Of a stretch of 64,000 nt of DNA, positions 22,202-28,405 are shown one piece after another. Each line of letters opens with the position of its first letter. Within the stretch, counting starts at the first letter, position 1. The stretch is from Methylomonas montana (GTDB lineage Bacteria; Pseudomonadota; Gammaproteobacteria; Methylococcales; Methylomonadaceae), in the NCBI RefSeq assembly GCF_030490285.1, contig NZ_CP129884.1, positions 4,340,001-4,404,000 of the forward strand, read 5' to 3'. A model generated the notes under the pieces. The model had not been told where the DNA came from, searched no databases, and was given only the letters and a program-made list of their open reading frames with translations. The translations under genes were made by a program, and so were the position numbers.

Positions 22202-23182
22202 GTGATCAACTCCATATCCGATACCCCACAACATCAGGCCGAACAGCAAGCCATCCTTTGGCAGGCAAAGTTAAGCTCCGATCTGCTCAGCGACCGACAG
22301 CGCCGCGAGTTTGAGGATTGGCTGGCCGAATGCCCGGAAAATGCCGCGGCCTGGCAGGCGGTCAATAGCTTCTGGACCGGCCTGGATGGCCTGACGCTGG
22401 CGGATATCGGCGCCGAATCGGGCGAAGTGCTGGCGTTTAGCCGAGCCAATGCATCCAAACCGCCACGACGCACATTCAAGACCGGCTTGGCGCTGGCCGC
22501 ATCGTTGTTGCTGACGCTGAGCATCGCTTACCAACAACTGGATTTTTATCTGGCCGACTATCGCAGCGCCACCGGCCAACAACGGCAAATCGCCTTGGCC
22601 GACGGCTCGACCGTATTGCTGAATACCGCCAGCGCGGTATCGGTGGATTTTTCCGAACAGCAGCGGTTGCTTACCTTGCATCGAGGCGAGGCCTTTTTTA
22701 AGGTGGCCGCCGACAGCAAGCGGCCGTTCGTGGTGAAAACCGACGCCGGCGAGGTGCGAGCCTTGGGCACCGCATTCGACGTTAAACTGCAGGATCAGCA
22801 AGCCAGCGTCACGGTGTTCGAACACGCCGTCAAAGTCACCAGCGCCAGCGGCGAGATCAAGGAAAGACTGGCGGAAGCCGAGCAACTGCAGTTCAGCGCC
22901 GATGGCATCAGCCCCCCGACCCACGTCAACCTACAACGCGCCGCCGCCTGGCACCAGCAGCGCATGGTGTTTCAGGACAAACCGCTGGCGGAAATCGTCG
23001 CCGAGCTGAATCGCTACCACCCCGGCAAAATCGTCATGGTAGGCGATGCGCTCAAAAACCTGCCGATCACCGGTGTATTCGGCATCGCCGATACCGACGT
23101 CGCACTGCAATCCATCGAACAAAGTTTGCCGGTTAAGGTTAGAAAAATCACCGACCATCTGGTGCTGCTGTCGGCGAAATAA
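22202..23182 (+). CDS. FecR-family anti-sigma regulator (unit 3)
   Basis: A 326-residue FecR starting with GTG. Seen: a DUF4880 region (AILWQAKLSSDLLSDRQRRE; FEDWLAECPENAAAWQAVNS), a membrane helix (GLALAASLLLTLSIAY), and a FecR domain (IALADGSTVLLNTASAVSVD; GEAFFKVAADSKRPFVVKTD). The C-terminus ends in ITDHLVLLSAK. In the other units the receptor follows within 200 bases; here the next gene on the strand belongs to an unrelated cassette. Confidence 0.92.
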   Translation: MINSISDTPQHQAEQQAILWQAKLSSDLLSDRQRREFEDWLAECPENAAAWQAVNSFWTGLDGLTLADIGAESGEVLAFSRANASKPPRRTFKTGLALAASLLLTLSIAYQQLDFYLADYRSATGQQRQIALADGSTVLLNTASAVSVDFSEQQRLLTLHRGEAFFKVAADSKRPFVVKTDAGEVRALGTAFDVKLQDQQASVTVFEHAVKVTSASGEIKERLAEAEQLQFSADGISPPTHVNLQRAAAWHQQRMVFQDKPLAEIVAELNRYHPGKIVMVGDALKNLPITGVFGIADTDVALQSIEQSLPVKVRKITDHLVLLSAK

Positions 23183-23405
23183 ATTGTGCCTTTAACAGAT
23201 GCTAGGGGTCGAAAGGACAAAAGCCTTCCGAGCCGTGCGGGCGGTTCTCCCACACACAGCTCGCCGTCGGTGGTTTTCTCATTTCACCAACACATGGTTC
23301 ATCCCGACAAAAAAATTCACCGTATTGAAAATTTTTTTCAAGCGGAAATAGACTGTTAGCCTCCCAACGATTGATGAAACTCGATAAGGTGATGTGCTAT
23401 AGGAA
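23183..23405. other. Left flank of the unit-3 cassette
   Basis: No gene seen. At 23230-23262 the arms GAGCCGTGCGGG and CCACACACAGCTC make an imperfect hairpin with a GGTTCT loop. It looks a little like a group II intron domain V stem but lacks its conserved catalytic triad layout. An AT-rich stretch (aaaaaaattcaccgtatt) follows near 23311 and could hold a promoter for the cassette. Confidence 0.35.
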
Positions 23406-23663
23406 ATGGGGACGCATCGGTCTCGATTTGTGCGCGTCACTTACGGCATTGCCGCCATATACACCCCTCTCTTCGGGCTCATGTATCGTTGGACAAAGCG
23501 CTGGCTTGACACACCCAGGTTAGTTTCTATACTGATGCGCAAACTGGATATACAGGCAAATAATCCTAGTTTAGTAGCTAAGTATCAAGCTGTGTGGGCC
23601 CAATCATTCGATAGGTGTTCCACTGTCTTCATACCTCATCCATCACGCGGAGAAACACAATGA
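23406..23663 (+). CDS. Possible 85-aa protein at the start of the cassette
   Basis: A short frame with one hydrophobic segment (VTYGIAAIYTPLFGLMY) and a basic middle part. Its stop overlaps the next gene's start in ATGA, which is why it is listed. AGGA lies too close to the ATG for an ideal ribosome binding site, and the C-terminus (FIPHPSRGETQ) is read through the next gene's Shine-Dalgarno. No family is recognised; it may be spurious. Confidence 0.28.
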   Translation: MGTHRSRFVRVTYGIAAIYTPLFGLMYRWTKRWLDTPRLVSILMRKLDIQANNPSLVAKYQAVWAQSFDRCSTVFIPHPSRGETQ

Positions 23664-23965
23664 AACCAGAAGAGTACAACCCCAAAGCAAGAGAGGCCTT
23701 CGGCAAGTCATTAATTGACGTTGGGGTCGGAATATTCAAGGGAATCATGCTTCTGTTCACTATCGCGCCGATGACGTTCCTGCTGAAAGGCGCGCTTGAT
23801 GGAACTGGAAAAAATGCTTCATTTGCGGATATCTGGAACTTCATGCGTAGCCCTTCGTACTTCGTCTTTTTGGTGCTCCTGGTAGTTGCATTCGTTTTTG
23901 GGCACTATTTCCGTAAGGAAGGCCTACGTCACATACATGAAATCGAGAATCGCACCAACAACTGA
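23660..23965 (+). CDS. Two-helix membrane protein of unknown function
   Basis: A 101-residue protein with two predicted membrane helices (GIFKGIMLLFTIAPMTFLL and SYFVFLVLLVVAFVFGHYF), a short loop between them (DGTGKNASFADIWNFM) and a charged tail (RKEGLRHIHEIENRTNN). GGAGAAAC precedes the ATG at good spacing. It is the first well-supported gene of the cassette that separates unit-3 fecR from its receptor. I do not recognise the family. Confidence 0.7.
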   Translation: MKPEEYNPKAREAFGKSLIDVGVGIFKGIMLLFTIAPMTFLLKGALDGTGKNASFADIWNFMRSPSYFVFLVLLVVAFVFGHYFRKEGLRHIHEIENRTNN

Positions 23966-24042
23966 CACCAGCTTCACCGAAACCACTCGCCCCAACCCCC
24001 AACCCCGAAATGGCCGATCCAAAGTGAGAAGAGTGTAGAAAC

Positions 24043-24810
24043 GTGGAAAATTTCATAATTTTGATAGGCGGTCCAGGAACATTTAAGTCTTGCGACCCGG
24101 GCCACGACAAGATCTGGCTCAACTATTTCTATCCCATCCAGATTGCCGCCGAGAAAGACCTCTACCACAAAAGGGCTGAGAATGTGCATTGGGTGGTGTA
24201 CGAGCCGGCTTATAGTGTGCGCTGGTTGGATGACTCCGAGATTACTTTTTGGGAAGGTGCGCAAGAGGCGCTCTCCGGTAAAGCTTTGCACAAGGTCAGG
24301 AAGAAAGCAGCCGATAACGTGATCAGTAAAGGAGCCTCCAGCTACGTTGAGCGTATTAAGAACCTCGCCAGAGGATACGGAATTACCTATAAGGGCATCA
24401 ATAAACCTCAGGAATTTTGGGACTATTTGGCCTCCTTTCCCTCGAAGTCAATCAGTAGGGTGTGGTATTCGGGCCACGCAACGCCTGGAGGACTGATCTT
24501 GCAATTGACTCACAATTCCGAATGTGAAGCGAGTTGGACGGATCAGTCGACGGTACTGACGCTGGACATTCCGAAACAAACGGCGATCAAGGATAGGTTC
24601 ATCGCCGATCCAAACAGACCGTCCAAATTCTATGGCTGTGCAACGGCTGATTTCGCAAGTTCATGGCATGTTACCTTCGCAGTACCTAGCGAAGGGGCGA
24701 AATCAAGCATCACTTTTGCGGGGATTTTCGGTGCGCCAGATGCTGTAATCACCCGTCTGGAGACCACGCCGACACCCAGAGGTGCTCCCGATTGGACCAA
24801 ATACCCTTGA
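24043..24810 (+). CDS. Unknown protein with possible caspase-like dyad
   Basis: A 255-residue soluble protein with a GTG start. It opens with a beta strand and Gly-rich turn (NFIILIGGPGTF). Two blocks stand out: RVWYSGHATPGGLILQL (His at the end of a strand) and KFYGCATADFASSW (Cys at the end of a later strand, then a helix). A His in SGH(G/A) followed by a Cys in a C-A/S context after the next strand is the arrangement of caspase/gingipain-fold peptidases. This is an analogy from motif order only. No signal peptide. It lies 77 bases after the two-helix protein, with a lipoprotein-like gene next. Confidence 0.6.
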   Translation: MENFIILIGGPGTFKSCDPGHDKIWLNYFYPIQIAAEKDLYHKRAENVHWVVYEPAYSVRWLDDSEITFWEGAQEALSGKALHKVRKKAADNVISKGASSYVERIKNLARGYGITYKGINKPQEFWDYLASFPSKSISRVWYSGHATPGGLILQLTHNSECEASWTDQSTVLTLDIPKQTAIKDRFIADPNRPSKFYGCATADFASSWHVTFAVPSEGAKSSITFAGIFGAPDAVITRLETTPTPRGAPDWTKYP

Positions 24811-24821
24811 GGTTGCCGCCA

Positions 24822-25424
24822 GTGAACCCAGTCAAGAAATCAAGCCTAGCCACACTTCTGGCATTAGTAGGATTGCTCGCGGTTTTCGCCTGTGAAACCG
24901 ATTCGCTGGACGATGCTTATAGACGCATTTATTTGGCGAAATACGCGGTGGATTTCCCGACTAGCGAAGAGGAACTCCATCGTTGCGAAAGCAATCGGGT
25001 AAAGACTTGCCTTGACCTTGTTGCAAAGGCGACGGATGGCAAGCGGCGGTTGCTGGCAGTGGAGCCGAACAAGGCCTTGGATCGAACACTAAAAACCATC
25101 GTCTCTAGCTGCCCTTTAGAAGATAGTGATCAACAAGAACTTTGCCTTGGTGCGATCGTCGCCCTGTATTTTTTTACGGAACCTGAGCTGGATGCGCGAA
25201 TATTGCGGGAATTGATGAAGGCCGAACGAACGGTTTTGCATAAGGTATTTAGTCCTTCGATGTTCGGCTGGTATTACAACCGCCCCCAACCGAAAGTGTG
25301 GATCGATGCCGTGAGCAAGCTCCCTCCCGACGACTTTCCTCACGACGGCAAGGCTAGTGTAATAAATGCCTTCGGCGCTTCCAAGCCTGCGGGCCTCGGC
25401 GACGGTGTCCGTTTACTGAAGTGA
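24822..25424 (+). CDS. Exported, probably lipid-anchored protein of unknown function
   Basis: About 200 residues. The N-terminus LATLLALVGLLAVFAC resembles a lipoprotein signal with Cys at +1, although Phe at -2 is unusual. The mature part contains four further Cys (RCESNRVKTC; SSCPLEDSDQQELC), which may form disulfides. GTG 24822 is chosen because TGAGGT lies upstream; TTG 24792 is an alternative. It is probably the last gene of the cassette and could be an envelope partner of the two upstream products. No family recognised. Confidence 0.6.
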   Translation: MNPVKKSSLATLLALVGLLAVFACETDSLDDAYRRIYLAKYAVDFPTSEEELHRCESNRVKTCLDLVAKATDGKRRLLAVEPNKALDRTLKTIVSSCPLEDSDQQELCLGAIVALYFFTEPELDARILRELMKAERTVLHKVFSPSMFGWYYNRPQPKVWIDAVSKLPPDDFPHDGKASVINAFGASKPAGLGDGVRLLK

Positions 25425-25816
25425 ATAACGTATCCTTCCCATGCCCCAACGTGGGAAGGATCGTCAACCTAACTCCAATACCTCAGTGGCGTGGGGCAAT
25501 TTCGCGATCGCAAACCGCCGTTACCTTTAAGTTTATGGCGGTTTGCTATCGCGAATCCACCATACCAACGATCCGCCGTACCGAGTTGCTGTCGGCGAAA
25601 TAATTTTCGCCGGCAATTGCGAATTGCTGTACGGGCACATTGACTTAAACCCTTTAGGGTATTCGCCCGCCCTGAATCAAGCCAACCAGCAAAAAAATCT
25701 CAGCAGGGAATGGATACCCTGCCTAAGCTACGTCGTCTTTATCTCCAAGCAACCTGATTTGCGTCAGCAAATAGAAGGAAGCCAACTTTTCCACGGACTC
25801 GATAATTGGAGAACAG
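25425..25816. other. Gap between cassette and unit-3 receptor, with REP-like hairpin
   Basis: No convincing gene. At 25433-25460 TCCTTCCCA and TGGGAAGGA form a 9-bp inverted repeat of the same type as the repeats at 28548-28643. It immediately follows the cassette's last stop. A direct repeat of a GCGATCGCAAACCGC-like stretch and its near-complement GCGGTTTGCTATCGC (25505-25553) forms a further hairpin. The receptor's ribosome binding site (TTGGAGAAC) lies at the right end. Confidence 0.5.
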
Positions 25817-28405
25817 ATGATAAGCAGACCCACAGTAGCCCGAGCGGACGCTGATTGCCACGAACCAGAACAAGCCTCGGCAATATTAATCAGCAAGCAT
25901 AGGCCGATTAGCTTTGCCATTTCCGGCATCTGCGCCGGCATTCTGCTGCTGGCTGCCAATCCGCAACCCACGCTTGCCGGGCAGGAAAACGCGGCAAGCG
26001 AACAATCGCTCCACTTTTCGATTCCCGCCGGCTCGTTATCCGATGCGTTGCTGCAATTCTCAGAAACCAGTGGCCAGAAGGTGCTGTTCAATGCCGACTT
26101 GGTGCGTGGTCTGGATAGCCAGGGGTTGCGCGGCCAGCTTACCGCGCAAGAGGCCTTGCGAAAATTGCTGAGCGGCACCGGCCTCGTGCCGAGAAAGACG
26201 GGGTCCGGCAGTGTGACGCTGGAAAAAGCCAATACCGTGGAGCCTCAATCGGCGACGACATTAGCTCCAGTTAATGTAACCGGCAAAGCAGTCTATGATT
26301 CCACCGATCCCTATAACACCGACTACAACCGTCCCAACGCCACGACCGCCACCAAGACCGACACGCCGATCATGGAAACACCTTTTTCCGTGCAGGTCAT
26401 ACCTAAGCAGGTAATGCAAGACCAGCAGGCTGTGCGATTGGAGAGGGCTATCGAAAATGTCAGCGGTACGTATTCCAGCCGGGCATCTGGTGGATTTGGC
26501 GGACAAAGCGCCACGTTTGTACGCGGCTTTGAAACTTTTGAGTTTTACCGTGACGGCGGCAAGTTCAATGGTGGTTTTGTGGTCAATGGCCCGCGCGAAA
26601 TGGCCAACGTCGAGCGAGTTGAAGTGCTCAAAGGGCCGGCCTCCATACTTTTTGGACGCATGGAGCCTGGCGGTATGGTCAACATCGTCACCAAGCGGCC
26701 ATTGGATACGCCTTATTATTCCTTGCAACAGCAATTTGGCTCGTTTGATTTTTACCGCACCACGGCGGATGCCACGGGCCCAGTGACAGACGATAAGTCC
26801 TTGCTGTACCGTGTCAATCTGGCTTATGAAAATAGCGGTTCGTTCCGGGAATTCCTTGAGCACGACCGGGTATTTTTTGCCCCGACCTTCCATTGGACGA
26901 TCAGCGACCAGACTCAGGCAAACTTCCACATGGAATACCAACACAGCAAGGATCCCCATGACATGGGGCTGTTTGCTATAGGCAACCGTCCGGTCAATTT
27001 GCCGCGTGAGCGCAATCTGGGAGAAAAGGGACAATGGGATGAAAGTGAAACCTTCAATGTGGGCTTTGATTGGTCGCATGCGTTTAACGACAACTGGACG
27101 CTACGTCACCGTTTCGATGCTATTTTCCTGCCCAAGGCCAATACGCTGCCTACTGTTAACGTCAATGGTCCCGTAAATCCAAGTAACTGCACCCCCGCAG
27201 GCTGTCGAGTGAACCGAGGGATTTTTCGTGATGAGCGCGACGACCATAACTATTACACCACCTTAGATATGCTCGGAAAATTTAGTACTTGGGGGATTAA
27301 ACACGAAGTGCTGATTGGCGGAGACTATCAGCGCCTTGACCACAGCACTGACTTTTTCTTTACACCGTATTTACAAATTGACGCCTACAATCCGCAGCAC
27401 ACGGGCTTAGACCTGAACGCCGGCCGATTCGGCGGTAGCATTAACAACCCGTTCAATTTTGGACACAATGCTTTTACGGAAGAATGGGGAGGATTCTACA
27501 CACAGGATCAGATAGAGCTTCCGTACCATGTCCATCTGTTGGCGGGTTTCAGATACGACACGGCAAGGTTTACAGAGTCACAAACCTTCAGTTCATCTGG
27601 AGACCAGACCAATACCTATAGCAACACCGAACAGGAAGCGGTCAATCCCCGCTTTGGTATTTTGTATCAACCCATACCCGAAGTCAGTGTCTATGGAAAT
27701 TATGTAGAGAACTTTGGTTCGACGAACGGTATCAATGCCAATGGCATCGCCTTGCCGGCCACCACCGCGCAACAATTTGAGGCGGGCATCAAGACCGAAC
27801 TGTTCGACAAACGCCTCTCCACCACCCTCGCCTGGTTCGATATTACTAAACAAAACATCGCTGTCACCGATCCTGACCCTGATAATGCACTGCGTGGTTT
27901 TCAAACCGCTGTCGGCGAAGTTCGCAATCAGGGGATAGAACTGGATGTAGCGGGCGAGGTGCTACCTGGCTGGAATGTCATCGGCAGTTATTCTTATATT
28001 GATTCCCAAATCACCAAGGACACTGGGCAGGATGTTAATGGCAACATCACCCTTGGAAACCAAGGACACCGTCTGTTTAATGTGCCGCGCAACATAGCCA
28101 GTCTTTGGAATACCTATGAGTTTTTAGGCGGCGATTTGCGTGGACTTAAATTCGGCGGTGGTGTGCTGGTTCGCGACCAACGGGAGGGAGATAACTCGAA
28201 TACTTTCCAACTGCCGGGCTATGCGACCATCAATCTGTTAGCCAGTTACACCCTAAACATTGGCAAAACCAAATTCACCGCCCAGCTTAACATCGACAAT
28301 CTGCTGAATAAAAACTACTACGATAGTGCTTCAAACAGCACAGGCAATGGCATTTATCCAGGCGCGCCGCGAACTGTGTTGGGCTCGATTCGGCTTGAGT
28401 TTTAA
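25817..28405 (+). CDS. TonB-dependent siderophore receptor with STN domain (unit 3)
   Basis: An 862-residue receptor. Seen: a signal segment (GICAGILLLAANPQPTLA), an STN domain (LHFSIPAGSLSDALLQFSET), a TonB box-like LAPVNVTG, a plug (METPFSVQVIPKQVMQDQQA; EVLKGPASILFGRMEPGGMV) and a long barrel ending in GSIRLEF. GGAGAAC lies before the ATG. The domain layout demands a FecI/FecR pair, which lies upstream beyond the 2.6-kb cassette. Likely substrate: a ferric siderophore. Close to the unit-1 and unit-4 receptors in motif content. Confidence 0.93.
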   Translation: MISRPTVARADADCHEPEQASAILISKHRPISFAISGICAGILLLAANPQPTLAGQENAASEQSLHFSIPAGSLSDALLQFSETSGQKVLFNADLVRGLDSQGLRGQLTAQEALRKLLSGTGLVPRKTGSGSVTLEKANTVEPQSATTLAPVNVTGKAVYDSTDPYNTDYNRPNATTATKTDTPIMETPFSVQVIPKQVMQDQQAVRLERAIENVSGTYSSRASGGFGGQSATFVRGFETFEFYRDGGKFNGGFVVNGPREMANVERVEVLKGPASILFGRMEPGGMVNIVTKRPLDTPYYSLQQQFGSFDFYRTTADATGPVTDDKSLLYRVNLAYENSGSFREFLEHDRVFFAPTFHWTISDQTQANFHMEYQHSKDPHDMGLFAIGNRPVNLPRERNLGEKGQWDESETFNVGFDWSHAFNDNWTLRHRFDAIFLPKANTLPTVNVNGPVNPSNCTPAGCRVNRGIFRDERDDHNYYTTLDMLGKFSTWGIKHEVLIGGDYQRLDHSTDFFFTPYLQIDAYNPQHTGLDLNAGRFGGSINNPFNFGHNAFTEEWGGFYTQDQIELPYHVHLLAGFRYDTARFTESQTFSSSGDQTNTYSNTEQEAVNPRFGILYQPIPEVSVYGNYVENFGSTNGINANGIALPATTAQQFEAGIKTELFDKRLSTTLAWFDITKQNIAVTDPDPDNALRGFQTAVGEVRNQGIELDVAGEVLPGWNVIGSYSYIDSQITKDTGQDVNGNITLGNQGHRLFNVPRNIASLWNTYEFLGGDLRGLKFGGGVLVRDQREGDNSNTFQLPGYATINLLASYTLNIGKTKFTAQLNIDNLLNKNYYDSASNSTGNGIYPGAPRTVLGSIRLEF

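Follow-up and report, generated by a model that had tools for sequence, protein, structure and literature searches.

A predicted caspase-fold type VI effector and lipoprotein immunity protein inserted in a Fec unit of a Methylomonas-like genome

Four fecI-fecR-receptor units lie within the window, the 64,000-nucleotide stretch of DNA analysed here, which comes from a 4.63 Mb Methylomonas-like genome (G000). The receptor gene begins 108 b after the end of fecR in unit 1, 183 b after it in unit 2 and 138 b after it in unit 4, whereas in unit 3 the interval is 2,634 b (23183-25816). These distances bear out the initial annotation, which had placed the receptor within 200 b of fecR in three units and a cassette of genes between the two in unit 3. 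The cassette was described there as a two-helix membrane protein, a possible caspase-fold protein and an envelope protein, which might make up a conflict or toxin-type module or an accessory to uptake. How did these genes come to separate fecR from its receptor, which of them belong together, and what might they do?

The insertion in Fec unit 3

Both FecI and FecR of unit 3 are recognized by Pfam. The fecR gene (22202..23182, forward strand; Pfam FecR, 6.1e-25) forms the left flank of the cassette, and the gene for the TonB-dependent receptor (25817..28405, forward strand) forms the right, its product sharing 84% protein identity with the receptor of a Methylomonas relative, G017. Because this relative carries the orthologous Fec unit with a fecR-receptor gap of 170 b and without the cassette, genome comparison identifies the cassette in unit 3 as an insertion, as had been suspected. 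On the fecR side, 81% nucleotide identity with G017 extends up to 23184, two bases beyond the fecR stop, and homology (about 81%) picks up again on the receptor side from 25690. An exact 17-base direct repeat is also present, with its left copy, TGCTGTCGGCGAAATAA, at the 3' end of fecR (23166..23182, forward strand) and its right copy at 25587..25603 on the same strand; by a simple equal-base estimate, about 0.0003 such repeat pairs would be expected by chance in 3 kb. The homology breakpoints and the repeats at both sides therefore place the inserted segment most simply at 23183..25603 (forward strand), a minimal reading that runs from the fecR stop to the end of the right repeat and corresponds to an empty site in G017. 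No integrase or transposase is found within this segment.

The edges of the cassette differ in part from their first description. Its start had been set at 23406, where an 85-aa open reading frame begins. The strongest promoter-like site, a sigma-70-like match of the form TTGACA-16-TATACT (23506..23533, forward strand; 11/12 consensus positions, a consensus match only), lies ahead of the cassette genes and inside this reading frame, which for that reason is probably not a gene. Hairpins had been described at each edge, and those on the right stand. One with an 11-bp stem and no T-run lies directly 3' of the stop of the predicted immunity gene (25433..25460, forward strand; z -4.3), followed by an imperfect palindrome that looks like a dispersed palindromic repeat (25501..25555, forward strand; 27-nt arms 85% complementary, z -6.2). 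The left-edge hairpin does not stand, being no better than shuffled sequences (z -0.7). The long palindrome, listed also as 25501-25587, has a 74% second copy (L037:2013-2102) some 38 kb upstream in the same chromosome, just after a transposase-like gene. A possible remnant of a group II intron at the left side of the cassette (23132-23264, minus strand) reached 23.1 bits, short of the cut-off of 40, and is not claimed.

The first gene of the cassette (23660..23965, forward strand) encodes the 101-aa membrane protein, which is hydrophobic around residues 17-47 and again around 58-87. Among 61 genomes searched it is present only in its own, and the one further homologue found, 37% identical, is encoded on a Salinimonas megaplasmid (L035:5974-6294), with an integrase and a RES/Xre toxin-antitoxin pair nearby. 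Pfam matches to BrkB and Sdh_cyt were sub-threshold, far under the cut-offs, and were discarded. A three-gene system was considered and rejected, since this gene is missing from every other locus of the conserved pair described below. The two-helix protein is thus better regarded as a passenger than as the cassette member it was first taken to be.

The caspase-like protein and its exported partner

The second gene (24043..24810, forward strand) has a GTG start and encodes a 255-aa protein with neither a signal peptide nor a membrane helix. The protein contains the motifs SGHA (residues 143-146) and YGCAT (197-201), whose order had first suggested a caspase-like fold. Searches of Pfam, NCBIfam, PADLOC and PHROGs returned nothing significant for the cassette proteins of the window or for the members of their alignments, and phmmer and profile searches of PDB chain sequences gave no significant match to the 255-aa protein. 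No chain of the type VI secretion system (T6SS) effectors Tce1 and Tce2, discussed below, was matched in the copy of the PDB sequences searched, which may lack 9qpe and has no chain for Tce2.

Structure prediction is more informative. The AlphaFold model, built from nine sequences (pLDDT 82.4, pTM 0.84), was compared with known structures by VIA-align, and the top 35 rows are clan CD proteins throughout, the first unrelated fold appearing at Z 7.3. The matches include the GPI transamidase subunit PIGK (Z 9.9, 182 residues aligned), legumains (up to Z 9.8), a SAVED-CHAT protease (Z 9.3) and a gingipain (Z 8.4). Also among them is Tce1, a T6SS effector, as seen within its Hcp3 ring (9qpe_G; Z 8.1, 142 residues). 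All these values are below 10 and back the fold class of the protein, not its activity. The best PDB row from Foldseek is likewise a legumain, with a weak E of 1.3e-3, and in a viral structure library caspases ranked first, with named caspases in seven of the first eight rows. In the model, a strand at 137-143 leads to His145 and a strand at 194-197 leads to Cys199, the layout of clan CD. Both residues are kept in all homologues that cover those positions, even members only 28-37% identical, and a 28% identical domain from UBA2778 retains the equivalents of both. As modelled, the protein thus has the alpha/beta/alpha caspase-hemoglobinase fold of clan CD, in agreement with the first suggestion, and His145 and Cys199 form a putative catalytic dyad, the juxtaposition of their side chains being deduced from the topology.

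The third gene (24822..25424, forward strand) encodes a 200-aa protein with a signal/lipobox-like N terminus. The GTG at 24822 is preferred as its start to the mechanical TTG at 24792; the resulting sequence, MNPVKKSSLATLLALVGLLAVFAC, opens with a hydrophobic segment ending ..LAVFAC. By inspection, similar N termini occur in most members of the family, with LASC in G460, ATSC in Hahella and VFAC in the window, and the Thioploca member has a signal-like segment without a lipobox. The predicted structure (pLDDT 83) is all-helical. Fold searches gave generic helical-repeat matches only, the best at Z 7.6, which is under the chance level for helical bundles, and no family was assigned. Partner proteins at the two-gene loci are 22-32% identical to that of the window, with Cys and Trp positions conserved. 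From this N terminus and its co-conservation with the caspase-like protein, the 200-aa protein is predicted to be the immunity lipoprotein of a 255-aa effector. The arrangement of a toxin without a signal and a partner with one is what would be expected if the toxin enters the periplasm from outside.

Distribution of the pair and links to type VI secretion

The pair, intact or decayed, is present in the window and in nine other genomes, with gene order and strand conserved, and at the five loci measured the two genes either overlap stop to start or are separated by no more than 11 b. Homologues of the 255-aa protein occur in three other Methylomonas genomes (46-50% identical) and, outside the genus, in MAGs of Kangiellaceae and Hahella (51-53%) and of Thioploca, and UBA2778 has one in the form of a domain; a search with the exported protein added two genomes of the order, G460 and G494. 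In the three other Methylomonas copies the pair lies between aqpZ and another gene. The effector of the window is no closer to those of other Methylomonas than to those of Hahella and Kangiellaceae (~50% each), and this points to movement of the pair by horizontal transfer. The family is rare, since sampling across the class yielded two positive genomes in 369 (that of the window and a weak match to a remnant in G360) and 398 genomes of the phylum gave no further match. Phage records (50,697), plasmid records (72,556) and viral contigs (2.9 million) were searched for a relative of the effector that would indicate a phage or plasmid origin, and none was found.

This distribution bears on the proposal that the genes serve siderophore uptake, with the protease and lipoprotein processing the unit 3 receptor, its FecR or its signalling chain. 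Anti-sigma factors of the FecR type are controlled by proteolysis, and the pair does sit inside a FecI/FecR/receptor unit. No Fec genes, however, are found near the pair in any of the nine other genomes, the Fec unit of G017 does without the cassette, and the protease has no signal peptide. With the pair existing apart from Fec genes and the Fec unit apart from the pair, an accessory role in iron uptake was rejected as an explanation and is held to be very unlikely. That the pair is found elsewhere also means that the genes are not confined to this Fec unit; had they always been found inside it, this would have told against the toxin-type module.

The pair is associated with type VI secretion. 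The T6SS sheath gene (VipB) is present in 10/10 genomes with the pair vs 71/369 in the class; for the six pair genomes outside the genus, (71/369)^6 = 5e-5, at a rate that ignores genome size. In the Thioploca MAG (L015) the pair begins 74 b after clpV of a tssE-tssF-tssG-clpV cluster. The same slot after clpV in the genome of the window, whose T6SS cluster was checked by Pfam, is occupied by a muramidase gene (PF11860) and then a gene for a secreted protein, which by their arrangement look like another effector-immunity pair. The pair of the window is itself distant from the T6SS genes of its genome, and the 255-aa protein lacks any loading domain, such as PAAR, VgrG or Hcp. The host cluster (L026/L027; G000:C1:355001-395000) reads tssA-B-C-hcp ... 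tssE-F-G-clpV. Downstream of its clpV, the muramidase and secreted protein, vgrG and Rhs-type genes make several candidate effector-immunity pairs, and an open reading frame with a long run of Gly-Pro dipeptides (L027:4310-5347) also follows the cluster.

Other neighbourhoods are varied. At the G460 locus the gene adjoining the pair encodes a GYSHGC motif, which we take to resemble the one in L,D-transpeptidase effectors, and a gene for a DUF2195 protein comes next; no paper joining DUF2195 with type VI secretion was found in the literature search. An open reading frame resembling a group II intron reverse transcriptase (L023:503-1918) lies a few kb from the G460 pair. The Kangiellaceae pair adjoins AbiE genes, and the effector remnant of G360 adjoins a peptidoglycan-binding/M23-like protein.

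Decay of the pair is uneven. The effector gene is damaged in four of ten loci and the partner gene in none (one-sided p 0.04): a transposase gene (IS) lies at the 5' end of the effector in G023, the G360 effector has lost its N terminus and retains the C-terminal 103 aa, that of G460 contains frameshifts, and that of Thioploca has a frameshift that is possibly a MAG sequence error, without which the count is 3/9. Decay of the toxin ahead of its immunity protein is what is expected of an effector-immunity pair.

A conflict module of another kind was also weighed, namely a toxin-antitoxin or anti-phage system in which the protease would be switched on within the producing cell, with the envelope lipoprotein as partner or target. 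Bacterial defence does employ caspase-fold proteases (CHAT, metacaspases), a SAVED-CHAT protease is among the structural matches, and AbiE genes at the Kangiellaceae locus and the RES/Xre pair near the plasmid homologue of the two-helix gene fit such a role. But there is no PADLOC match, the partner is exported and the protease is not, so that the two would not meet inside the cell, and neither the association with T6SS nor the position behind clpV is accounted for. We regard such a system as unlikely.

The UBA2778 MAG (G040) presents a different architecture, in which the caspase-like domain is N-terminal and fused to a C-terminal Amidase_2 domain (L009:8651-10135). Neither the partner gene nor VipB was found in this MAG, and this version may therefore be part of another system. 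The fusion adjoins a gene with the metalloprotease-like motif HEIGHAFNLQH and no Pfam match. Its domain order would suit a caspase-fold autoprocessing or structural domain of another contractile injection system, one that is not itself the toxin, as would the peptidoglycan-binding/M23-like neighbour of the G360 remnant and the caspase domains that process polymorphic toxins (PMC3482391). Nearly all members, however, are standalone proteins of ~255 aa that have no attached domain to free and come with an exported partner of their own, and a processing role is accordingly given little credence, less than self-directed toxicity or phage defence.

Relation to known effectors and proposed function

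The best account of the pair, and one that we consider quite probable, is a caspase-fold cysteine peptidase that travels as T6SS cargo and acts in the periplasm, together with a lipoprotein immunity protein. The conflict module first proposed is thereby supported and given a more specific form. Several of the features by which such pairs are recognized are present: adjacent, co-directional and conserved genes, a T6SS in the host and linkage to T6SS genes in one genome (Thioploca). The evidence is genomic and structural, and from it we infer secretion, peptidase activity, a periplasmic target and binding between the partners. The 255-aa effector would be loaded as tube cargo, in the manner of Tce1 inside Hcp3, and the T6SS of its owner would carry it to the periplasm of Gram-negative neighbours. 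There it would cleave a peptide bond, either in an envelope protein or in a cell-wall stem peptide, with Cys199 serving as the nucleophile and His145 as the base; a cell-wall link of the substrate is hinted at by the Amidase_2 fusion of UBA2778. In the periplasm of the owner, the 200-aa lipoprotein would bind and block effector arriving from sister cells.

Tce1 and Tce2, the closest known counterparts, are cargo effectors of the Pseudomonas aeruginosa H3-T6SS (PMC13323088; PDB 9qpe). They share with the 255-aa protein a caspase-like (TcdB protease-like) cysteine protease fold, a His-Cys dyad and a role as T6SS cargo, all three predicted for the latter. The spacing of 54 between His and Cys equals that of Tce1 (H186/C240; PMC13323088), which is the only T6SS effector among the structural matches (Z 8.1). 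Neither Tce protein affected growth of E. coli, Tce2 slowed yeast, and no immunity genes were found for them (PMC13323088), whereas a dedicated exported partner accompanies every pair described here. Caspase-like domains of polymorphic toxins are listed as both toxin and processing domains, with T6SS among the export routes (PMC3482391). These Tox-Caspase domains have a caspase-like fold with His and Cys, and some versions have been proposed as toxins (PMC3482391), but they form part of large proteins, at the C terminus or internally, and are mostly regarded as processing peptidases, unlike the small standalone protein found here with its own predicted immunity family. Peptidase family C13 (legumain and the GPI transamidase PIGK) provides the best structural matches (Z 9.4-9.9 over 170-183 residues), yet at 8-14% identity, with no detectable sequence similarity and no Pfam match.

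In layout the cassette is like T6SS effector-immunity pairs built on amidases, muramidases or L,D-transpeptidases, with a toxin that lacks a signal peptide and an exported partner, and it shares with them a patchy distribution and, in one genome, a place beside T6SS genes. Known periplasmic T6SS effectors mostly hit peptidoglycan or lipids, whereas the 255-aa protein is a predicted clan CD peptidase. No clan CD peptidase acting as a periplasmic T6SS effector was found in the literature searched, nor any description of the family formed by the 255-aa protein and the lipoprotein, and a survey of T6SS pairs by structure names neither a caspase nor a legumain type in its main text (PMC11148199). 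With somewhat less assurance, we lean towards seeing in the pair a hitherto undescribed family of caspase/legumain-fold T6SS effectors that kill target bacteria by periplasmic proteolysis, countered by a new family of all-helical immunity lipoproteins and spread among Gammaproteobacteria as a self-contained two-gene cassette.

A function is thereby proposed for two genes that are unnamed in Pfam, NCBIfam, PADLOC and PHROGs. The caspase-fold T6SS cargo effectors described in 2026 are anti-eukaryotic or inactive on bacteria and come without immunity genes (PMC13323088). If the present reading is true, the caspase protease fold would be used between bacteria too, with a dedicated periplasmic immunity protein, which would raise the question of which envelope protein or peptide the effector cuts. 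For methane-oxidising bacteria, the pair suggests a weapon of competition.
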